Shown here piece after piece: positions 7,872 through 15,961 of a stretch of 64,000 nucleotides of DNA. This stretch comes from Paenibacillus sp. Soil750 (GTDB taxonomy: Bacteria > Bacillota > Bacilli > Paenibacillales > NBRC-103111): NCBI RefSeq assembly GCF_001428045.1, contig NZ_LMSD01000001.1, forward strand, positions 372,001 through 436,000. Direction: 5' to 3'. The position numbers were made by a program, and so were the translations under genes. Position 1 is the first letter of the stretch; the number at the start of each line of letters is the position of its first letter. The notes below the pieces were generated by a model. That model was not told the origin of the DNA, made no database searches, and saw only the letters and a program-made list of their open reading frames with translations.

Positions 7872-9680
7872 ATGTGCGGAATTGTAGGATATATTGGCAG
7901 TCAGGATGCGAAGGAAATACTGGTCAAGGGACTAGAAAAGCTTGAATATCGAGGGTATGATTCTTCGGGTATTGCTATTCTAAACGAGAGCGGCCTACAT
8001 CTGTATAAAGAAAAAGGTCGAATTGCGGCACTTCGCGAAGTTATTGATTCGGAGCAAGGGGCGCGGATGGGAATTGGTCATACAAGATGGGCAACGCATG
8101 GCAAACCAAGTAAGCGCAATGCACATCCTCATCAAAGTCACAATGGTAGATTCACGGTCGTACATAATGGTGTGATTGAGAATTATCAAGAGCTGAAGGA
8201 GAACTCCCTTGCTCATATTCCATTCTCTAGTGATACGGACACGGAAGTCATTGTACAAAAGATGGAGCAACTTGTGGAAAGTGGATTATCTGTCGAGGAG
8301 GCTTTTCGGCAATTGCTTCTAGCAATTAAAGGTTCATATGCTGTTGCTGTATTAGATAGTCAGGACACAGAAACCATTTATGTTGGCAAAAATAAAAGTC
8401 CTTTACTCATCGGTCTTGGATCCGATTTCCATGTTATTGCGAGCGATGCGATGGCGATGCTGCAGCTTACGAATCAATTCGTCGAATTGATGGATGAAGA
8501 GATGGTTATTCTTCGCCAGCATTCCAAAACAATTAAGAACTTAGATGGTGAAACGATTCAAAGAAGACCATTTCAAGTAAAACTGGATGCCAGCGATATA
8601 GAGAAAGGTTTATACCCGCACTATATGCTCAAGGAGATTGACGAGCAGCCAGTGGTTATTCGCAAGGTAATATCCAAATATCAGGATGGCCAGGGGGGAA
8701 TCTTGATTGACCCTCAGTTGCGCGAACGTATGACAATGGCGGATCGCATCTATATCATTGCTTGTGGAACCAGTTATCACGCTGGTTTAGTTGGTAAGCA
8801 ACTGATCGAGAAGATCGCTAACATCCCAGTTGAAGCCCATATCGCCAGCGAGTTTCTGTATAACAGGCCTATCTTGTCCGCGAATCCGCTGTTTATCTTT
8901 ATTTCGCAGAGCGGCGAAACGGCAGATAGCCGAGGTGTATTGGTTGCGATTAAACAGATAGGGTATCCTACCGTTACGATTACTAACGTACCAGGATCGA
9001 CACTATCTCGTGAAGCGGATTATACGTTACTCACGCATGCAGGACCAGAGATTGCTGTAGCTTCAACGAAAGCCTACACAGCGCAAATTGCTGTATTAGC
9101 GTTGCTTGCCTTCGATAGTGTAAGAGAGAAAGGCATGGAGCAGTTGTATGGTATTAACCCTTTTCATGAGCTGAGTATCGCCGCGAACGCTATGGAAATT
9201 CTGATTAATAAGAAAGAGATGATGGAAGAAGTCGTTTGGAAATATCTCACTTCCTCCCGAAATTGTTTCTTCATTGGCAGAGGGGTAGATTATTATGTTG
9301 CATTAGAAGGCGCCTTAAAGCTGAAGGAGATATCGTACATCCAAGCTGAAGGGTTCGCAGGTGGGGAACTCAAGCACGGCACAATTGCCTTAGTTGAGGA
9401 GGGGACACCTGCCATTGCTCTCATTACACAGTCACATATTCGTGCGAATGTTCGAAGCAATGTGCAAGAAATCATGGCACGTGGTGCCAATGTGTGTATG
9501 ATTACCATGGAAGGATCAGAGGAGAGAGGCGATCAGATTGTGCTGCCTGCCGTCCAAGAGCTGCTAACCCCTTTGGTGTCAGTGATTCCATTACAATTAA
9601 TTTCTTATTATGCAGCTAAATATCGGGGCTGTGATATTGATAAGCCCAGAAATCTTGCCAAAAGTGTCACTGTGGAGTGA
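7872..9680 (+). CDS. glmS: Glutamine--fructose-6-phosphate aminotransferase (isomerizing)
   Basis: A 602-residue enzyme making glucosamine-6-phosphate from fructose-6-phosphate and glutamine. The start at 7872 is fixed by chemistry: the product begins MCGIVGYIG so that Cys2 becomes the N-terminal nucleophile, and GGGGAGG at 7857-7863 is correctly spaced. The glutaminase domain (about 1-240) has TRWATHG and HNGVIEN; two SIS domains follow ([17 protein letters not shown]) and the C-terminus ends NLAKSVTVE as in the family. No glmS ribozyme is recognisable upstream; a SinR-type operator is there instead. It is probably a paralogue that supplies UDP-GlcNAc for exopolysaccharide. Confidence 0.96.
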
Positions 9681-9688
9681 TGATAACG

Positions 9689-10036
9689 ATGATTGGTCAC
9701 AATATATCGAGTATTCGTAAGCAAAGGGGGTATACATTGTCCGAGCTCTCGGAACGGACAGGTATTTCCAAGTCCTATTTAAGCAACATTGAGAGGAATT
9801 TGAAACAGAATCCTTCCATTCATGTAATCGAGAAAATTGCTTTGGTTCTCAAGGTTGATCTGAAAATACTTTTGAAAATTGCTGTAGAAGTGGAAACCAA
9901 TCAGCAGCTTGATCAAGAATGGATGGATTTTATTGCAGACTTGAAAAAATCAGGCATTAAAAAGGAACGGATCCATGAGTTGAAAATATTGATAGAGTTT
10001 ATGAAATGGCATAATGACAAAATAACGAGTGTCTGA
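9689..10036 (+). CDS. SinR/SlrR-like transcriptional regulator
   Basis: A 115-residue protein with an N-terminal XRE helix-turn-helix (MIGHNISSIRKQRGYTLSEL, then SKSYLSNIER) very close to SinR. A C-terminal SinI/SinR-type dimerisation helix pair (QLDQEWMDFI) follows. The ATG at 9689 aligns with the SinR start; GGAG at 9674-9677 serves it. It follows glmS by 8 bp, so both genes should share the SinR-controlled promoter. In Bacillus subtilis slrR is itself repressed by SinR and its product forms heteromers with SinR; this gene is the positional and sequence candidate for that role. A hairpin terminator at 10072 ends the unit. Confidence 0.85.
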   Translation: MIGHNISSIRKQRGYTLSELSERTGISKSYLSNIERNLKQNPSIHVIEKIALVLKVDLKILLKIAVEVETNQQLDQEWMDFIADLKKSGIKKERIHELKILIEFMKWHNDKITSV

Positions 10037-10071
10037 TGAGATCATTTGAACTTATTCATGATAGCGAAGTA

Positions 10072-10099
10072 AACACTAGCCCCTCAGGGGGCTAGTGTT
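10072..10099 (+). terminator. Rho-independent-type hairpin after slrR-like gene
   Basis: AACACTAGCCCC and GGGGCTAGTGTT form a 12-bp perfect stem with a very short loop. The following bases GTTCTTTATT are T-rich and are also the first SinR-type operator of sinR, so terminator and operator abut. Confidence 0.75.
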
Positions 10100-10138
10100 G
10101 TTCTTTATTGGGAACAATATTTGTTCTTTAATAGGAAT
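10100..10138 (+). promoter_or_regulatory. Two tandem SinR-type operators at the sinR promoter
   Basis: GTTCTTTATTGGGAAC at 10100-10115 is a dyad with perfect GTTC/GAAC ends, and GTTCTTTAATAGGAAT at 10123-10138 is a second copy 23 bp downstream, about two helical turns. The second copy overlaps the predicted -35 region of sinR. The arrangement suggests autoregulation by SinR or control by the SlrR-like paralogue. Confidence 0.75.
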
Positions 10139-10149
10139 TCTGTTATACT
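10121..10149 (+). promoter_or_regulatory. Predicted sinR promoter
   Basis: TTGTTC at 10121-10126 and TATACT at 10144-10149 are separated by 17 bp. The -35 box is weak and lies inside the second SinR-type dyad. Confidence 0.5.
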
Positions 10150-10189
10150 TATAGGAGCAACTATTACATTTTAAAAGGGAAGATCTAAT

Positions 10190-10531
10190 ATGATTGGTAA
10201 ACGCGTACAACAATTAAGGAAAGAAAAGGGCCTGTCCCTCACAGAATTAGCTGAGCGGGCAGGTGTGGCCAAATCGTATATTAGCAGCCTAGAGCGAGAT
10301 ATCCAAAAGAATCCTTCTATCCAGTTTCTAGAGAAGATTGCAGCTGTACTAAAAGTGCCTGTCGACAGACTTATTGATGATCAAGAAGAGATAGCTGTAG
10401 GTGAGCGAGAGTTAGATGAGGAATGGTATGAAATTATTAAAGAAGCAATGACTTCTGGTGTAGATAAGCAGCAATTTCGGGAGTTTTTGGATTTCAATAA
10501 ATGGAGAATGAAACGGCCTAACGATGAATAG
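10190..10531 (+). CDS. sinR: Biofilm master repressor SinR
   Basis: A 113-residue protein that can be aligned along its whole length with Bacillus subtilis SinR. The XRE DNA-binding domain (about 1-65) contains SLTELAERAGVAKSYISSLE and NPSIQFLEKIAAVLKVPVD. The C-terminal SinI-binding helices contain ELDEEWYEIIKEAMTSGV and FREFLDFNKWR. SinR represses matrix genes by binding GTTCTYT sites, and such sites occur at this promoter and two others nearby. The ribosome-binding site is AAAAGGGAAG. The gene for its antagonist SinI lies just downstream on the other strand, unlike the sinI-sinR tandem order of Bacillus subtilis. Confidence 0.94.
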   Translation: MIGKRVQQLRKEKGLSLTELAERAGVAKSYISSLERDIQKNPSIQFLEKIAAVLKVPVDRLIDDQEEIAVGERELDEEWYEIIKEAMTSGVDKQQFREFLDFNKWRMKRPNDE

Positions 10532-10550: not shown

Positions 10551-10730
10551 TTATGGGGACATGCAAGGATCATTTTCATTTGTGATTTGTGCTAGTTTCT
10601 TGGGTTGGAAGGGGCTTCTTAAGAATGCGCGGATATCTTCCATGGTAAGTCCCATCTTACGAGCACTCATAATAAGATTGATCCACTCTGCGTCATACTC
10701 TTCTATTTCCATTTGCTTTAGCATATTCAC
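10551..10730 (-). CDS. sinI: SinI-like anti-repressor
   Basis: A 59-residue protein containing the Sin domain: YDAEWINLIMSARKMGLTMEDIRAFLR corresponds closely to the SinR-binding helices of SinI (split here: YDAEWINLIMSARK, then MGLTMEDIRAFLR). It lacks a DNA-binding domain, so it should act by forming a heterodimer with SinR. GTG at 10730 is preferred because GGAGGGG ends six bases upstream; ATG at 10724 is possible. The gene is convergent with sinR, with 19 bp between stop codons. A GATAC-N5-GTATC dyad lies just upstream of the start. Confidence 0.85.
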   Translation of the reverse strand: MNMLKQMEIEEYDAEWINLIMSARKMGLTMEDIRAFLRSPFQPKKLAQITNENDPCMSP

Positions 10731-10759
10731 AACCGACCCCTCCAAAACTTTCTGTGTAA

Positions 10760-10774
10760 GATACGCTTTGTATC
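10760..10774. promoter_or_regulatory. GATAC-N5-GTATC dyad (copy 1), sinI promoter
   Basis: GATACGCTTTGTATC has perfect 5-bp arms. On the minus strand it begins about 10 bp after the predicted sinI -10 box, covering the start-point region, which is a typical repressor position. Confidence 0.65.
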
Positions 10775-10783
10775 GTTATATGT

Positions 10784-10812
10784 ATTATCGCATGTTTTTT
10801 CTCCGAAATCAA
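10784..10812 (-). promoter_or_regulatory. Predicted sinI promoter
   Basis: On the minus strand TTGATT (10812-10807) and GATAAT (10789-10784) are separated by 17 bp. Transcription would start near 10776 and run into sinI through the dyad at 10760-10774. Confidence 0.5.
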
Positions 10813-10830
10813 TCCCGTTCACATTAAAAT

Positions 10831-10845
10831 TATACAAACTGTATC
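10831..10845. promoter_or_regulatory. TATAC-N5-GTATC dyad (copy 2)
   Basis: TATACAAACTGTATC is a one-mismatch copy in the divergent region between sinI and the phosphoesterase gene. It contains a minus-strand TATAAT at one edge. A different palindrome, TTGTAT-GTG-ATACAA, lies at 10875-10889. Confidence 0.5.
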
Positions 10846-10921
10846 ATGAATCGAGAAGGGGATTATGTATTATTTTGTATGTGATACAAGTCTTTAGACC
10901 TAGTTAGGAGGCGGACGCAGC

Positions 10922-11788
10922 ATGGACGATACCCCCTTAAGTCGCAGGTCATTCCTCAAGCATAGTCTATTGGCGGTTGGTTCTCTAGGGATATTAGCGG
11001 GGATGAGCGGTGCATATGGTATTTTCGGTGAGCCGAATTGGATCCAGACAACGACGGTCAAACTAGCATACAAGCGTTATCCAGCTTCGTTCGCGGGTAT
11101 GCGAATCGTACAGTTCAGCGATACCCATATTAGCAAGTATTATGGCTTAGCTCATTTAACTAGATTGGCCCAGCTGCTGCAGCGACAAGAACCTGACATC
11201 CTTGTTTTTACTGGCGATTTATTTGATTCCAGACAAGGCGAAATATCGAATGACGTGATTCCCATTCTATCTCAGCTTCATGCGACATATGGGAAATTTG
11301 CGGTACTAGGCAATCATGATCTGCGTATGGATGCGACACGAATAACGGAGGTATTGGAGCAATCTGGTTTTAAAGTACTCGTCAATGGAAGCCAGAGAAT
11401 CAGCCGAGGAGATGAAAGTATTCATATCGTCGGTGTGGATGAGATGTTCCATGGTAAACCTAATCTACCACTCGCCCTAAAAGGGATAGACCAAGATGAA
11501 TTCGTCCTCTTGCTCGCACATGAGCCTGATTTTGCGGACTTGGCTTCGAGCTATGCTGTCGATTTACAACTTTCCGGCCACAGTCATGGTGGGCAGATTC
11601 GTATCCCTTTCTATGGAAGTGTATTCACACCAGACCTAGGCCAGAAGTACTCGATAGGTTTGTATAACTTTGACGGAACGGAGTTCCATGTGTACACCAA
11701 TCGGGGTATTGGTACGACCTTATTACCGATTCGATTCAATTGCCGACCTGAAATTACTGTATTCGTCCTGGAGACGAAGCTCATATAA
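10922..11788 (+). CDS. Tat-exported metallophosphoesterase (YkuE-like)
   Basis: A 288-residue calcineurin-like phosphoesterase. The N-terminus has a twin-arginine motif SRRSFLK followed by a hydrophobic stretch, so it should be exported folded by Tat, as for Bacillus subtilis YkuE. Metal-binding motifs occur in order: FSDTHIS, TGDLFDS, GNHDLR, AHEPDF and GHSHGGQ. The family acts on phosphodiester bonds outside the membrane; the natural substrate is uncertain. It is a single gene with AGGAGGCGG upstream and a hairpin terminator at 11792. Confidence 0.92.
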   Translation: MDDTPLSRRSFLKHSLLAVGSLGILAGMSGAYGIFGEPNWIQTTTVKLAYKRYPASFAGMRIVQFSDTHISKYYGLAHLTRLAQLLQRQEPDILVFTGDLFDSRQGEISNDVIPILSQLHATYGKFAVLGNHDLRMDATRITEVLEQSGFKVLVNGSQRISRGDESIHIVGVDEMFHGKPNLPLALKGIDQDEFVLLLAHEPDFADLASSYAVDLQLSGHSHGGQIRIPFYGSVFTPDLGQKYSIGLYNFDGTEFHVYTNRGIGTTLLPIRFNCRPEITVFVLETKLI

Positions 11789-11791
11789 ATG

Positions 11792-11833
11792 TAAAACCTC
11801 CGCTGCTATGAAAATGAAGCAACGGAGGTTTTA
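11792..11833. terminator. Bidirectional terminator between convergent genes
   Basis: TAAAACCTCCG (11792-11802) pairs with CGGAGGTTTTA (11823-11833), with A-rich and T-rich flanks in both directions. It serves the phosphoesterase gene and the convergent secreted-protein gene, whose stop is at 11839. Confidence 0.8.
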
Positions 11834-11838
11834 TTTGC

Positions 11839-12129
11839 CTAATAACAGAACCACTTCTTCCAAATATCCAGCGAACTAATAGCTTCATCCGATTCCCAGT
11901 CGACATCATTAAAATCTTGATGATTCCAGCTTGCGATAAAATCATTTAATTCGGCATTCACTTCGGTGGGATCGTTGAAAAAATTTGTGAAAAAGTGATA
12001 AAAACTATGAGGGCTACTTTGCAAATGATTGTCAGAGTTACTTGTACCTGATGATGCTGACGAATAGGCGGGAAACATAATTGCGCTAGAGAGTAGAAGA
12101 ATAAAAGGTAGTTTGAGAAATTTAAACAT
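11839..12129 (-). CDS. Small secreted protein under a SinR-type operator, candidate matrix protein
   Basis: A 96-residue protein with a clear Sec signal peptide (MFKFLKLPFILLLSSAIMFP, cleavage likely near AYSSA). The mature part is acidic and aromatic-rich (HSFYHFFTNFF, WNHQDFNDVDWESDE). I recognise no domain. The ATG at 12129 is chosen because GGGAGG ends eight bases upstream; GTG at 12135 would be too close. Its promoter has a perfect TATAAT and a SinR-type dyad over the start point. In Bacillus subtilis SinR represses secreted matrix proteins such as TapA and TasA, so a matrix or signalling role is inferred, not shown. Confidence 0.75.
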   Translation of the reverse strand: MFKFLKLPFILLLSSAIMFPAYSSASSGTSNSDNHLQSSPHSFYHFFTNFFNDPTEVNAELNDFIASWNHQDFNDVDWESDEAISSLDIWKKWFCY

Positions 12130-12166
12130 TTTCACGGCCTCCCTTCTTGAATAGTAACTGAAAATT

Positions 12167-12182
12167 GTTCTTTATTAAGAAT
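12167..12182 (-). promoter_or_regulatory. SinR-type operator of the secreted-protein gene
   Basis: GTTCTTTATTAAGAAT on the plus strand is the same dyad as at glmS and sinR. It begins at the -10 box of the minus-strand gene and covers the start point. An additional GTTCTC half-site on the minus strand (12210-12205) overlaps the -35 box. Confidence 0.75.
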
Positions 12183-12209
12183 TATACAGCAAATAATAGG
12201 TTTTGAGAA
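12181..12209 (-). promoter_or_regulatory. Predicted promoter of the secreted-protein gene
   Basis: On the minus strand TTCTCA (12209-12204) and a perfect TATAAT (12186-12181) are 17 bp apart. Both elements touch SinR-type sequences. Confidence 0.6.
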
Positions 12210-12241
12210 CGGTGAAAGCATAGATCATTTCTTAATTTTAT

Positions 12242-12256
12242 GATACAATATGTAAC
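12242..12256. promoter_or_regulatory. GATAC-N5-GTAAC dyad (copy 3)
   Basis: GATACAATATGTAAC lies between the secreted-protein gene and the recombinase gene. A plus-strand TACAAT -10-like box lies within it. Confidence 0.5.
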
Positions 12257-12312
12257 ATGATAGATGAAAAGGGAGTGGTATGCCAATAAAATGATAGCTC
12301 CACATATCAATA

Positions 12313-12327
12313 GATACATATCGTAAC
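12313..12327. promoter_or_regulatory. GATAC-N5-GTAAC dyad (copy 4)
   Basis: GATACATATCGTAAC lies 41 bp before the recombinase start. The identical 15-mer occurs again at 15489, upstream of the second polysaccharide operon. Confidence 0.55.
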
Positions 12328-12368
12328 ATATCCTATGAAACTAATTAAGGTCATGTGAGGTGCTACTC

Positions 12369-12875
12369 ATGCAAGTTGTTCAACCAATTAGAGAACAAGA
12401 GAAAATTGAGCAAATTCAGGAAGTGTTGAAAGAACAATCGGTTCGTGACTGGCTGCTTTTCACAATTGGAATTAATTCAGGACTCCATCTTAGTGATATT
12501 CTCTATTTAAAAGTAAAAGATGTAACGGATCGAAATATTGTGAGTGTAAGAGAGGAGAAAACGGGGAAAGTAAAGACATTCCAGCTTTCTTCGCAGCTGA
12601 AGGCTTATATTAAGGAATATGTCCAATATATGGATGAAGACAATTACTTATTTCCTTCCCAGCGTACAGGTCACCCTATTAAGCGAATTCGTGTTTATCG
12701 GATTCTTAATCAGGCTGCAAAGCAGGTAGGCTTAACAGATATAGGTACGCATACCCTTCGTAAGACCTATGGCTATCATTACTACCTCAAAACGAGAAAT
12801 GTCTCTGTACTTAGAGATTTGTTTAATCAGTCAGCACCATCCGTGACTTTAAAGTATATTGGTGTCAACAACTAA
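12369..12875 (+). CDS. Catalytic-domain-only tyrosine recombinase
   Basis: A 168-residue protein corresponding to only the catalytic domain of phage-type integrases. The first Arg position is replaced in NSGLHLSDILYLKVKD (usually G-R/L pattern), but HTLRKTYGYHYY matches the HxxR box and the C-terminal LKYIGVN supplies the nucleophilic Tyr. There is no N-terminal arm- or core-binding domain. ATG at 12369 is preferred because GTGAGG ends eight bases upstream. No att repeat or cargo was found nearby, so it may be a stand-alone inversion or resolution enzyme or a domesticated DNA-binding protein. Two GATAC dyads precede it. Confidence 0.75.
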   Translation: MQVVQPIREQEKIEQIQEVLKEQSVRDWLLFTIGINSGLHLSDILYLKVKDVTDRNIVSVREEKTGKVKTFQLSSQLKAYIKEYVQYMDEDNYLFPSQRTGHPIKRIRVYRILNQAAKQVGLTDIGTHTLRKTYGYHYYLKTRNVSVLRDLFNQSAPSVTLKYIGVNN

Positions 12876-12880
12876 TGGAA

Positions 12881-12928
12881 GGCTGAGCGTTGAGAGCAGC
12901 TAGTAATTACTCTAATGAACGCTCAGCC
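12881..12928. terminator. Inverted repeat between convergent recombinase and XRE genes
   Basis: GGCTGAGCGTT (12881-12891) pairs perfectly with AACGCTCAGCC (12918-12928). The right arm lies within the last codons of the minus-strand XRE gene. There is no strong T-run, so the termination role is uncertain. Confidence 0.45.
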
Positions 12929-13275
12929 CTAACAAAAGCAATAAATCTTCTTGCTTCCTCGGCAGATAATCGTTTTCCATCCACTGTTAATGAAAACTTC
13001 TGTAGTATACCCTCGTCTGTTAAATCCAAATTTTCGACAAAGTCTCGTACATCTTCATCCAAAACCGTTTGTTGATGGTTTGTACGCCCTAGCAAATAAT
13101 CAATAGAAACATTGAAAAAATTTGCAATCTTATTAATAGTTTCATAATCAGGTTCGCGGCGATTGGTCTCATAGTGAGACAGGGATGCTCTGGAAATACC
13201 TATTTTGACGGATAAGTCCTCTTGGGTTAGTCCTCTTTTTTCACGTAAGAGTGCAATTCGATCTCCGTATTTCAG
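12907..13275 (-). CDS. XRE family transcriptional regulator, probable CTG start
   Basis: The frame encodes a full XRE domain (KYGDRIALLREKRGLTQEDL, SRASLSHYETNRREPDYETI, FFNVSIDYLLGRT) plus a C-terminal tail (LTDEGILQKFSLTVDGKR, LSAEEARRFIAFVR) seen in Bacillota repressors. No ATG, GTG or TTG lies between the upstream in-frame TGA and the conserved domain. CTG at 13275-13273 sits nine bases after TGAGGA and gives LKYGDRIALL, where relatives have MKYGDRI. That yields 122 residues. The recognition helix resembles the PBSX repressor Xre. Three GATAC dyads lie between it and the divergent gene at 13506, suggesting autoregulation. Confidence 0.75.
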   Translation of the reverse strand: MKYGDRIALLREKRGLTQEDLSVKIGISRASLSHYETNRREPDYETINKIANFFNVSIDYLLGRTNHQQTVLDEDVRDFVENLDLTDEGILQKFSLTVDGKRLSAEEARRFIAFVRAERSLE

Positions 13276-13379
13276 CTTGATCAGTCCTCACTGTTCATAA
13301 TCATTCAATTATTATATCCACTATCATTAACGAAATATACCAGAAGATAATTATAACAAAGCAGAGATTCATTTGACTA

Positions 13380-13394
13380 GATACAAAATGTATT
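13380..13394. promoter_or_regulatory. GATAC-N5-GTATT dyad (copy 5)
   Basis: GATACAAAATGTATT is in the divergent region of the XRE gene, just upstream of a possible minus-strand promoter (TAGTCA ... TATAAT). Confidence 0.55.
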
Positions 13395-13413
13395 TGAAAT
13401 AATTAATAACCTC

Positions 13414-13442
13414 TTGATAAGTTACGAAATGTATCATATAAT
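13414..13442 (+). promoter_or_regulatory. Predicted strong promoter of the 13506 gene with operator in the spacer
   Basis: TTGATA (13414-13419) and TATAAT (13437-13442) are separated by exactly 17 bp, and the GTTACGAAATGTATC dyad fills the spacer. The layout is the same as at 15146-15174, including the preceding CCTC. Confidence 0.75.
13421..13435. promoter_or_regulatory. GTTAC-N5-GTATC dyad (copy 6)
   Basis: GTTACGAAATGTATC lies between the -35 and -10 boxes of the 13506 promoter, so bound protein would block RNA polymerase. Confidence 0.65.
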
Positions 13443-13450
13443 GAATATTA

Positions 13451-13465
13451 TATACATATTGTAAC
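13451..13465. promoter_or_regulatory. TATAC-N5-GTAAC dyad (copy 7)
   Basis: TATACATATTGTAAC lies immediately downstream of the -10 box of the 13506 promoter, covering the start-point region, 30 bp from copy 6. Confidence 0.55.
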
Positions 13466-13505
13466 AGGTTACGACATTTAGTCATACATTAAGGGGTGGG
13501 AATAG

Positions 13506-13697
13506 ATGATTAATTATGAAAAAGTATTTTGTGTCGAATGCAATGCAATGATGGATAAGTGCTATGCCAAAAAGATTTTTAAGACAGGCTACTACCATAC
13601 AACAATTCCATTGGCCCATTGTATGAAATGCGAGACCATGCAACCTATTTATTTTCCGAGTTATGTTGAAGGAATGGCTGTTGCGAGTTGGATTTGA
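13506..13697 (+). CDS. Small zinc-ribbon-like protein, 63 aa
   Basis: The product has two CxxC pairs, VECNAM preceded by Cys (C9 and C12) and HCMKCETM (C39 and C42), spaced as in a small zinc ribbon or treble clef. It has no signal peptide. The ribosome-binding site AAGGGGTGGG and a near-consensus promoter with a GATAC-type operator support a real, tightly regulated gene. A long hairpin terminator follows. The function is unknown; its divergent position next to the XRE gene suggests it is a primary target. Confidence 0.75.
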   Translation: MINYEKVFCVECNAMMDKCYAKKIFKTGYYHTTIPLAHCMKCETMQPIYFPSYVEGMAVASWI

Positions 13698-13748
13698 TCG
13701 GATAAGGCGGGAGCAGCATGAGAGACATGAAATGGACTTGTGATCACC

Positions 13749-13800
13749 AATAAGCCACGTTCTCTTAGTTGGATAAGAGACGTGGCTTATTATTTGTTTT
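13749..13800 (+). terminator. Strong hairpin terminator after the zinc-ribbon gene
   Basis: An 18-bp stem, AATAAGCCACGT plus CTCTTA pairing with TAAGAG plus ACGTGGCTTATT, has one bulged base and is followed by TATTTGTTTT. Confidence 0.85.
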
Positions 13801-13826
13801 CTTTCTTGTATTTCTATAATCTCGAT

Positions 13827-13841
13827 GATACAATACGTATC
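13827..13841. promoter_or_regulatory. GATAC-N5-GTATC dyad (copy 8), LCP gene promoter
   Basis: GATACAATACGTATC has perfect arms. It lies seven bases after a perfect TATAAT (13815-13820), at the expected start point of the LCP gene. Confidence 0.65.
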
Positions 13842-13872
13842 TAATAAATAGGGAAGTTAAAGGAGTGACTAC

Positions 13873-14871
13873 ATGCGTCGTTGGGTAGTGTACACTGCAG
13901 GCTGTCTCTTTGTTGGAATCATCGGGGGGGGATTAGGTGTTTATTGGAAATATGAGCCCGTTCGTCATTTTGAGCAAGTAGATGTGCCCGTTTTAAGCCG
14001 ACCATCGGTTCCTATTGAGGAAGGAGTGACGGTCATTCAGCCTAAAGTTGCAGTAGAGCCAACACTTCAAGTTACGCAGCAAGTACCTGCTAAACCGATA
14101 AAATCATTCAATGTGCTTCTTCTTGGGACAGATGCCAGAGGTGATGAGAACGCTAGATCGGATGTTGTAATCGTTATGCACATTATTCCCAGCACGCGTA
14201 AAATCAATATGATTTCCATCCCCAGAGACAGTCGCGTCTACATAGAAGGTGTGGGATACACCAAAATAAACCATGCTCATATCCTTGGTGAGATGCGGGG
14301 AGGTAACGAGGAGGGGACGAAAGAAGCGCTTCAAACCGTATCCAATTTTCTAGATGTACCGATCAATTATTACATGAAGACGAATTTTAAAGGTTTTGAG
14401 GATTTCATCGATACCATTGGCGGCGTAAATGTAGAGGTTGAAAATGATATATATTTACTTCATTCTGGTGTGACACTACCTCAAGGAAAGCAGCATATTG
14501 ATGGCAAATTGGCGCTGAGCTTAGCAAGAGAACGATATGCTTTTGCGAATGGAGATTTCGACAGGCAGAGCGAGCAAACACAGCTATTAAAAACAGTTGC
14601 GACAGAAATATTAAGACCAGAGCATATTGGAGAAATCGCAGGTTTGTTATCAAAGGTCAAGAAAGATATGGTGGATACCAATTTCCAGGATAACGATATC
14701 ATTAGCTTAGCCTGGCTGTTTAAAGGAATGACAGCAGATGATTTTACAACCAAGCAAGTTCCTGGCCAAAGTGGCTATGAGATGGATCCTTTAGTCCATT
14801 CACGGTTATATTATTGGATTCCGGATATGGTGAAGGTGAAGGAAATCAGCGCTACGTTATTTAAAGATTAA
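13873..14871 (+). CDS. LytR-CpsA-Psr (LCP) family glycopolymer ligase
   Basis: A 332-residue protein with a short cytoplasmic N-terminus, one transmembrane segment (about residues 6-25) and a large extracellular LCP domain starting near residue 78. Family motifs are visible: LLLGTDARGDENARSDVV, SIPRDSRVYIEG and the later LARERYAFANGDFDRQ with its conserved Arg and Asp residues. LCP enzymes transfer undecaprenyl-linked glycopolymers to peptidoglycan. Located just before a polysaccharide operon, it may attach that polymer to the wall. The ribosome-binding site is AAAGGAGTG, and a GATAC dyad overlaps its promoter. Confidence 0.93.
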   Translation: MRRWVVYTAGCLFVGIIGGGLGVYWKYEPVRHFEQVDVPVLSRPSVPIEEGVTVIQPKVAVEPTLQVTQQVPAKPIKSFNVLLLGTDARGDENARSDVVIVMHIIPSTRKINMISIPRDSRVYIEGVGYTKINHAHILGEMRGGNEEGTKEALQTVSNFLDVPINYYMKTNFKGFEDFIDTIGGVNVEVENDIYLLHSGVTLPQGKQHIDGKLALSLARERYAFANGDFDRQSEQTQLLKTVATEILRPEHIGEIAGLLSKVKKDMVDTNFQDNDIISLAWLFKGMTADDFTTKQVPGQSGYEMDPLVHSRLYYWIPDMVKVKEISATLFKD

Positions 14872-14909
14872 AGTTATGCGGTCAAAAAAGAACCAACTTT
14901 CGCACTTTA

Positions 14910-14924
14910 GATACGATTCGTATC
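14910..14924. promoter_or_regulatory. GATAC-N5-GTATC dyad (copy 9)
   Basis: GATACGATTCGTATC is palindromic over seven bases on each side, the most symmetrical copy. No clear promoter boxes surround it. Confidence 0.6.
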
Positions 14925-15145
14925 TGAGTGATTGGAATTGTTTTTTAAAAAAATGAACATCGTACGAGAGCCGCTGATTCTATCAGACTTGGGTGCGCTT
15001 ACAAGATTTCTTGCTCAAATCTATACAGGATTCTGAGCATATCCGAGGGTTTACGGGCATAACTTTGAAAACAGATGATGTAATTTTCACATGTGCTATA
15101 CAAGTTTTGAGGATCTATTGAACTTTCTTATTTTGTGAAATCCTC

Positions 15146-15174
15146 TTGACAAGATACGAGATGTATCATAAATT
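15146..15174 (+). promoter_or_regulatory. Predicted promoter with perfect TTGACA and operator in the spacer
   Basis: TTGACA (15146-15151) is followed after 17 bp by TAAATT (15169-15174), and the GATACGAGATGTATC dyad occupies the spacer. It should drive the 50-residue ORF and possibly the polysaccharide operon beyond. Confidence 0.65.
15153..15167. promoter_or_regulatory. GATAC-N5-GTATC dyad (copy 10)
   Basis: GATACGAGATGTATC lies precisely between the -35 and -10 boxes, as copy 6 does at 13421. Confidence 0.65.
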
Positions 15175-15234
15175 GAAAGCAGAATTAAAGCGAAATGTCA
15201 TAAAACATAACATGATCAGGAGTGGTGCTCTTTT

Positions 15235-15387
15235 ATGGAAAAAGATAAGCCAGTTACACTTGAGATTAAAGATGTTTTAAGACATTTGGGACTGGATTTG
15301 CAACAGTTTCTGTTGTGGAAAGAAGGCCAGTCGAAGAAACCCCTCCAAGCTAATCCCAACAATGCTCCCCTCACTCCCGAGCGATAA
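15235..15387 (+). CDS. Small hypothetical protein, 50 aa
   Basis: ATG at 15235 opens a 50-codon frame (MEKDKPVTLEIKDVLRHLGL at the start) ending at TAA 15385-15387. AGGAG lies 12 bases upstream and a strong regulated promoter about 60 bp upstream. The N-terminal half is predicted helical and amphipathic; the C-terminal half is Pro/Asn-rich. It resembles small anti-repressor or checkpoint peptides in size only. The function is unknown. The same transcript may continue to the operon at 15521, as no terminator is visible between them. Confidence 0.5.
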   Translation: MEKDKPVTLEIKDVLRHLGLDLQQFLLWKEGQSKKPLQANPNNAPLTPER

Positions 15388-15488
15388 CAAACATCGCATC
15401 GCGTCCAAACAATCCCCTATAAACTCATTTACGTACGCCACACTAGTCGCACATGGAAGTCAGCACCTGTTGTAGTCAGGCTCAAGAT

Positions 15489-15503
15489 GATACATATCGT
15501 AAC
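15489..15503. promoter_or_regulatory. GATAC-N5-GTAAC dyad (copy 11) before the polysaccharide operon
   Basis: GATACATATCGTAAC ends only 17 bases before the start codon at 15521 and just ahead of its ribosome-binding site AAGGAGGGG. It is identical to copy 4. Confidence 0.6.
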
Positions 15504-15520: not shown

Positions 15521-15961
15521 ATGACTACATCGTTTGCTGAAGGATCAGAAATGGTTTTGAGATACCCTTGTTATGGTTTGATGAATATTAAACAGATTGA
15601 TGGGCGAATGCTGGAATCCAAGTATACGCCGTTCAAAGTGATCGACATTAGTCCTTCGCAAATGGGCTTCACTTCTTATTTAAGTCTACCCATAAATGAA
15701 AATGTGATTTGGTGTTTCCAATTTAAGTTTCATAACGAAGACATATCGTTAAGCGGGGTGCTTCGTGAAAGAAGCCAGTTAGAGAATGGCTATGTCTATG
15801 CCGTGGAGTGGTTGGAGGAAGAAACCCCGACAGGGGCCATTGTGCTCCAAACTCTCCGTTATTGGGAGCATCAATTTAAGAATGAATTTGAGAAAGCCGT
15901 GCGTGGTTATCTCAATGCCATGGAGCTGACCAATAAGACAACAATGGATGTTTCATGCTGA
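15521..15961 (+). CDS. PilZ-like protein heading the polysaccharide operon
   Basis: A 146-residue cytoplasmic protein. An Arg in VLRYPC and the motif VIDISPSQMGFTS recall the RxxxR and D/NxSxxG signatures of c-di-GMP-binding PilZ domains, followed by beta-strand patterns (SLSGVLRERSQ, YVYAVEW). The second motif is stretched relative to the consensus, so ligand binding is uncertain. The reading frame overlaps the phosphatase gene by seven bases, so the two are translationally coupled. A PilZ protein here would offer c-di-GMP control of polymer synthesis. Confidence 0.55.
   Translation: MTTSFAEGSEMVLRYPCYGLMNIKQIDGRMLESKYTPFKVIDISPSQMGFTSYLSLPINENVIWCFQFKFHNEDISLSGVLRERSQLENGYVYAVEWLEEETPTGAIVLQTLRYWEHQFKNEFEKAVRGYLNAMELTNKTTMDVSC

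Follow-up and report, generated by a model that had tools for sequence, protein, structure and literature searches.

A 64,000-nucleotide stretch of the genome of Paenibacillus sp. Soil750 (contig NZ_LMSD01000001.1, positions 372,001 to 436,000; hereafter the window) contains, between its positions 10,760 and 15,503, eleven copies of a 15-bp palindrome which, judged from comparative sequence data, are very probably the operators of a regulon governed by the XRE-type helix-turn-helix (HTH) repressor encoded in their midst. A regulon which includes, as a graded part, a link to a separately encoded solo copy of the C-terminal domain of XRE is considered likely. The complete chain, in which an RNA sensing cyclic di-GMP (c-di-GMP) controls a decoy of the repressor's pairing domain, and this decoy in turn acts on a domesticated phage repressor set over a family-wide biofilm and exo-polymer regulon, is put forward as a modestly favoured reading. 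The operator copies and the gene of their proposed binder are as follows.

10760-10774, operator GATACGCTTTGTATC, 15 bp upstream of the SinI-like gene
10831-10845, operator TATACAAACTGTATC, overlapping the -10 of a promoter-like site at 10818-10847 (plus strand)
12242-12256, operator GATACAATATGTAAC, with the next copy 71 bp further on
12313-12327, operator GATACATATCGTAAC, upstream of the recombinase gene
13380-13394, operator GATACAAAATGTATT, abutting the -35 of a promoter-like site on the XRE strand (13379-13350)
13421-13435, operator GTTACGAAATGTATC, within the 17-bp spacer of the promoter at 13414-13442 (plus strand)
13451-13465, operator TATACATATTGTAAC, 30 bp after the 13421 copy
13827-13841, operator GATACAATACGTATC, upstream of the LCP gene
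14910-14924, operator GATACGATTCGTATC
15153-15167, operator GATACGAGATGTATC, within the 17-bp spacer of the promoter at 15146-15174 (plus strand)
15489-15503, operator GATACATATCGTAAC, upstream of the PilZ-like gene and the second polysaccharide operon
12907-13275, minus strand, XRE repressor of 122 residues, with an HTH at residues 1-65, a C-terminal domain at 71-121 and a likely CTG start; proposed binder

All eleven copies listed in the initial annotation were found again at their positions, each of them between genes, while the pattern which it had given for them, GATAC-N5-GTATC/GTAAC, is exact (on either strand) in eight, the copies at 10831, 13380 and 13451 departing from it by one or two flanking bases. 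The relaxed consensus KWTACR-N3-YGTAWM fits ten of the eleven, the exception being the copy at 13380, the final base of which is T. No further match to this consensus occurs in the window, in agreement with the absence of complete copies elsewhere in it which had been noted, and 51 window positions lie within two mismatches of GATAC-N5-GTATC as compared to 23.7 expected. A genome-wide scan, proposed at the outset as a check, placed 10 of 58 relaxed matches in the 4,744-bp stretch where 0.033 were expected (binomial P 2e-22); a reversed control pattern matched 37 places in the 8.3-Mb genome as compared to the 58 of the consensus, and many of the relaxed matches outside the island may be due to chance. 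The operators at 13421 (TTGATA-17-TATAAT) and 15153 (TTGACA-17-TAAATT) do fill 17-bp promoter spacers, as had been described. Promoter-like sites in general were not enriched relative to shuffled sequences (20 as compared to 17.1), and the promoter evidence used here is confined to the overlap of the best promoter-like sites with operators; the placement of two copies in promoter spacers and of the 10831 copy over a -10 points to repression. Neighbouring operators in XRE loci are mostly separated by 29-37 bp (39 cases), 71 bp (23) or 91-92 bp (9), and such set distances between paired operators suggest cooperative binding.

The assignment of XRE as the likely binder, already made in the initial annotation, was strengthened by the observation that the motif follows the XRE gene over 80 loci and 104 genomes. 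XRE carries a Cro/CI-type HTH (HTH_3, E 2.5e-19), and its gene was present in all 30 genomes of the genus searched, the source genome included, being split over two frames in genome G022. A single scan of named genomes found 167 XRE relatives, the best 80 loci of which were used; the XRE of named loci of Paenibacillus oryzisoli and P. qinlingensis is 100% identical. These 80 loci hold 365 sites, while the reversed pattern occurs 9 times in them; of the sites, 138 lie in the kilobase upstream of XRE; at least one site was found in 79 of the 80 loci, and a site within 400 bp upstream of XRE in 61, GATAC-N5-GTATC operators thereby standing beside the gene of XRE itself. Among 104 family genomes, perfect sites were present in 94 of the 95 with a close XRE (764 sites as compared to 22 controls) and in two of the nine without one (3 sites as compared to 1 control), three of these nine being incomplete assemblies (68-85%). 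This count treats G022 (split XRE, best E 1.8e-33) as possessing XRE, and G031 and G035, with similar E values, as lacking it; when G022 was strictly counted as lacking XRE the figures became 93 of 94 genomes with 751 sites and 3 of 10 with 16 sites (P 4e-8). What tells against this association is that its Fisher P value of 1e-8 counts the 104 genomes irrespective of kinship, and that genome G048 has an XRE and zero perfect sites. XRE is nevertheless by far the best candidate, on sequence evidence, for the predicted binder of the operators. As regards its start, the reading frame has no ATG, GTG or TTG at window positions 13275-13273 (minus strand); the aligned first residue is encoded by CTG here and in 13 of the 80 loci, and by TTG in 4 of the 80, and it is likely from this alignment that XRE initiates at a non-standard CTG, perhaps a weak start.

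Two other proteins encoded nearby might have been responsible for these sites. The short tyrosine recombinase encoded at 12360-12875 lies inside the cluster, with two sites upstream of its gene, and would make the palindromes its recognition or crossover sites in an invertible-promoter system; however, a match to the recombinase is missing in 54 of the 80 XRE loci, and as 53 of these 54 possess sites, 49 of them with a site within 400 bp upstream of XRE, the recombinase was rejected as the binder. Longer direct repeats around the 71-bp operator pairs, moreover, were not found, and an invertible-promoter system is barely conceivable. It is very improbable, too, that either of the two SinR-like HTH proteins encoded at 9677-10531 is the binder, close as these are to the operators and with one of them carrying a SinI-type domain, as 45 of the 80 loci contain nothing that matches the SinR-like protein at 10190 and sites are present in 44 of these 45. 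In addition, SinR-type sites (GTTCTYT) look different.

The second component of the proposed system lies outside the window, on another contig of the source genome, and consists of two adjoining elements.

G000:C12:1128079-1128177, c-di-GMP-I riboswitch (RF01051), directly upstream of the solo gene, 73.2 bits as compared to a gathering score of 35
G000:C12:1128220-1128408, 62-residue solo protein, matching XRE residues 74-119

Comparison of a profile of 25 solo proteins, built with no XRE rows, to XRE columns 71-118 yielded an hhalign probability of 98.8% (E 5e-17, 40% identity), and on this profile evidence the solo protein is homologous to the XRE C-terminal domain. Residues L21, L23, L41, F49, F52 and E56 are invariant in solo proteins and XRE alike (36 rows). 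The solo-domain model matched nothing in the PDB at E 0.001; as the VIA-align rows barely cover the C-terminal domain of XRE, its fold is not called new.

The riboswitch lies just upstream of the solo gene and on the same strand in 29 of the 30 best-matching solo loci, including all 25 from the genus, with scores of 67 to 81 bits. Five c-di-GMP-I riboswitches were found in the source genome, the other four being located at G000:C5:173445, C42:395713, C23:239463 and C12:1055337, and none in the window scored above the Rfam gathering scores. Just 3′ of the aptamer, 21 aligned leaders share an invariant GCCTCC, which is able to base-pair with the ribosome-binding GGAGG. In these leaders, pairing amounts to 94.6% for an 8-bp helix which has two G residues in common with helix P1 of the aptamer; 20 cells change on both sides (as many in 0 of 500 shuffles), and such changes occur in four of the eight pairs (as many in 23 of 500). 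P1 itself is 100% paired, with changes on both sides in just one of four pairs (34 of 500 shuffles). Leaders were modelled for 27 of the 29 loci, L186 and L188 having no clear ribosome site, in a model that excludes ligand and pseudoknots. When P1 was forced, mean exposure of the ribosome site over the 27 leaders fell from 0.70 to 0.16, as compared to 0.44 with shuffled linkers; exposure fell in 26 of the 27 leaders, and to below 0.2 in 22, while the leaders of L177-L179 fit the off-switch model poorly. As forcing of P1 hides the ribosome site, a translational off-switch is predicted, and the model thereby predicts that c-di-GMP switches translation of the solo protein off. The solo loci share the full aptamer with known c-di-GMP-I riboswitches (RF01051) and differ from these in that the aptamer precedes a solo regulator domain, an arrangement for which no earlier report was found in the open-licence literature searched.

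From these data we infer DNA binding and repression by XRE, as well as pairing of XRE with the solo protein and the sign of that pairing. The palindromes would be the operators of a phage-type repressor turned chromosomal regulator in the Paenibacillaceae, which, by occupying promoters, would close its own region together with the surrounding genes for surface polymers and biofilm control. The solo domain would most probably pair with the C-terminal domain of XRE and thereby disarm it, as SinI does SinR, and as c-di-GMP would lower the amount of solo domain, the level of c-di-GMP would determine the degree to which the regulon is shut. With the solo domain as an antirepressor, high c-di-GMP would tighten repression; with the solo domain as a co-repressor, it would open the regulon. 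Action of the solo domain on XRE under c-di-GMP control is rather probable given the homology and the linked riboswitch, and should it act on XRE, an antirepressor is by analogy the favoured form, to a similar degree, owing to the precedents of SinI with SinR and of a phage repressor with AimX, a structure which is among the solved relatives closest in sequence (PDB titles).

Several observations weigh against this solo-domain mechanism. One of the best 30 solo loci has no riboswitch, and among loci with weaker solo domains it was found in one of nine (ten stretches were taken, of which L202 repeats locus L187). XRE and its sites also occur in many genomes where no riboswitch-linked solo protein was found, which indicates that the regulon can work without the solo protein. 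The alignment from which the fold of the solo protein was predicted included eight XRE rows, and full-length structural matches superpose poorly (root-mean-square deviation 8-11), the HTH alone fitting. Furthermore, the modelled off-switch combined with an antirepressor means that high c-di-GMP tightens repression, the opposite of the usual link between c-di-GMP and matrix production. This last difficulty would disappear if the solo domain were a co-repressor joining XRE, for then high c-di-GMP, by switching the solo protein off, would open the regulon and promote matrix genes with the usual sign; the better-known precedents of cut-down pairing domains, SinI above all (PDB entry 1b0n), are nonetheless antagonists, and a co-repressor is considered unlikely. 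Alternatively, the solo domain may act on another target, its kinship to XRE reflecting ancestry only. The location of its gene on another contig, with no operator found in the surrounding 10 kb, an identity to the XRE domain of about 40% and the scarcity of riboswitches among the weaker relatives are in keeping with this; the six residues invariant over both groups argue against it, as does the PilZ-like gene, through which the XRE regulon is linked to c-di-GMP a second time. The alternative is considered doubtful, though a serious contender.

The proposed antirepressor role of the solo domain has its closest parallel in SinR-SinI of Bacillus, where SinI antagonizes SinR, and where there is likewise an HTH repressor, a C-terminal domain found also as a separate small protein (here at the hhalign probability given above) and biofilm-type targets. 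The present system differs in that a SinI-type domain is absent both from XRE (no PF08671 match at E 0.01) and from the solo protein, the kinship of which is to the XRE domain, in having another operator, and in that the solo protein stands under a c-di-GMP riboswitch. The related HTH repressor of arbitrium phages (9sf2, residues 4-119, E 9e-12; PDB title) also has a small partner, AimX, which is driven by peptide signalling, unlike the c-di-GMP-controlled solo protein. The proposed system thus combines a phage-type operator and HTH with a logic like that of SinR-SinI. In the passages retrieved by term from one exopolysaccharide (EPS) paper, SinR is mentioned for Bacillus subtilis only (PMC7911366), and in a passage of a review the targets given for the AimX of one phage are MazF and another phage protein (PMC11323111).

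The likeness of XRE to the PBSX repressor Xre, suggested earlier from the recognition helix, is upheld by genomic association, as both operator and recognition helix are shared with phage repressors. In footprints PBSX Xre reportedly binds such 15-mers. A scan with one exact operator version found at least 80 operator-bearing loci on viral contigs. Among the matches listed, in 28 of the 80 viral loci the site lies no more than 600 bp from an XRE-like gene, as compared to 5.2 expected by position, related contigs not being independent; among the same matches listed, SRARYSHYENGRSEPD occurs in the repressors of 11 of the 80 viral loci, as compared to SRASLSHYETNRREPD in the XRE of the window, and many of the contigs carry two to four operators. 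On many viral contigs, L251, L264, L266, L273 and L302 among them, a second HTH gene lies on the opposite strand amid the same operators, resembling a Cro-type partner. XRE thus shares with PBSX Xre-type repressors the operator, a near-identical recognition stretch and the position of operators beside the repressor gene, and differs in that it sits amid polysaccharide and biofilm genes, has a surface-gene regulon, and possesses a different C-terminal domain, PHROG matches being N-terminal and reaching residue 88 at most. It matched 511 phage records, with 33-40% identity in the best 40 of the 511. None of the ten proteins scanned near XRE (9.7-16 kb) is a phage structural protein, one being of the integrase family, and as XRE on this basis lies outside a prophage it is called phage-type rather than filed as a phage repressor. 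The original PBSX Xre work is cited in PMC11172241.

The target genes were surveyed over 81 loci, namely the 80 XRE loci and the window, in which 350 of 375 operators were intergenic, that is, outside called open reading frames (ORFs) of at least 100 residues. That a single repressor controls the genes named in the initial annotation gained support from the recurrence of the same genes with sites in relatives. XRE itself is downstream of sites in 62 of the 81 loci and a Wzz gene in 18; the other probable targets in the window are listed below, the counts being loci with sites upstream.

10551-10745, minus strand, SinI-like antirepressor gene (PF08671, E 3.4e-11), probable target
10922-11788, plus strand, calcineurin-like phosphoesterase, probable target (20 of 81 loci)
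11839-12135, minus strand, small secreted protein, probable target (16 of 81)
12360-12875, plus strand, short tyrosine recombinase (PF00589, E 4.3e-22), probable target (22 of 81)
13506-13697, plus strand, 63-residue CxxC (zinc-ribbon-like) protein, probable target (18 of 81)
13873-14871, plus strand, LCP ligase (PF03816, E 3.3e-41), probable target (11 of 81)
15235-15387, plus strand, 50-residue ORF, probable target (21 of 81)
15521-15961, plus strand, PilZ-like protein of 146 residues, first gene of the second polysaccharide operon, probable target (28 of 81)

The SinI-like gene of the window, with its start 15 bp away from the site at 10760, was missed by the gene caller of the survey; SinI-like genes adjoin sites in nine other loci, within a merged cluster of 25 loci the rest of which comprises XRE paralogues and SinR-like HTH genes. 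The PilZ-like protein scores 12.7 bits against PF07238 (cut-off 22.5), while among six relatives two pass (28.8 and 30.4), three are below the cut-off and one is without a match; it is on account of the scores of these relatives that the PilZ label is used. Neither the solo protein nor the PilZ-like protein had a match in NCBIfam, nor did the proteins of 50, 63 and 96 residues. A relationship between the family of the 50-residue ORF and the C-terminal domain of XRE was considered and found to be unsupported (hhalign probability 12.5%). The relatives of the small secreted protein (11839-12135, minus strand) vary in length, often with asparagine-rich stretches, and nearly all of those shown in full have a C-terminal IWKKWFCY. 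Positions 10100-10165 of the window, which precede the SinR-like gene at 10190, contain inverted repeats of the GTTCTTT/GGAACA type, which we take to resemble the SinR site, and it is possible from these repeats that this gene controls itself. At L152:4822-5004 (minus strand) a 60-residue ORF lies divergent from a riboswitch-solo-domain gene, and by eye is slightly like the 50-residue ORF of the window.

Confinement of the motif to the island, as originally described, applies within the window and does not extend to the genome, where single copies exist before surface-protein genes. The perfect sequence GATACRWNWYGTATC occurs ten times in the genome, three times in the island and as seven single copies elsewhere, five of the latter being intergenic. 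Genes downstream of single sites outside the island encode a collagen-binding-domain surface protein, a DUF5658 protein, a TPR/L,D-transpeptidase protein and an SLH protein, and the related genome G008 likewise has a site before a DUF5658 gene as well as a close pair before a TPR gene. G008 holds 30 perfect operators, and some of the 22 examined (L219-L238) precede genes for a solute-binding protein, for a cohesin-dockerin protein and for proteins of the GH2, GH3, GH10, GH35 and LamG types; judged from these neighbouring genes, the regulon has apparently expanded in G008 to take in exo-enzymes, secreted glycosidases included. These single sites are, together with the riboswitch-linked solo C-terminal domain and the PilZ-like target, an addition to what the initial annotation contained.

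No earlier description of a system of XRE, operator and solo domain was found in the open-licence literature searched, subscription papers being mostly outside this coverage. As the operator is readable in nearly all XRE-bearing genomes of the family, the members of the regulon can be catalogued in each of these, and the riboswitch and the solo domain together provide a directly testable path from c-di-GMP to transcription. If the proposed mechanism is true, a phage-type repressor would have been turned into a lifestyle switch in which an RNA sensor is followed by a protein decoy and then by many operons.

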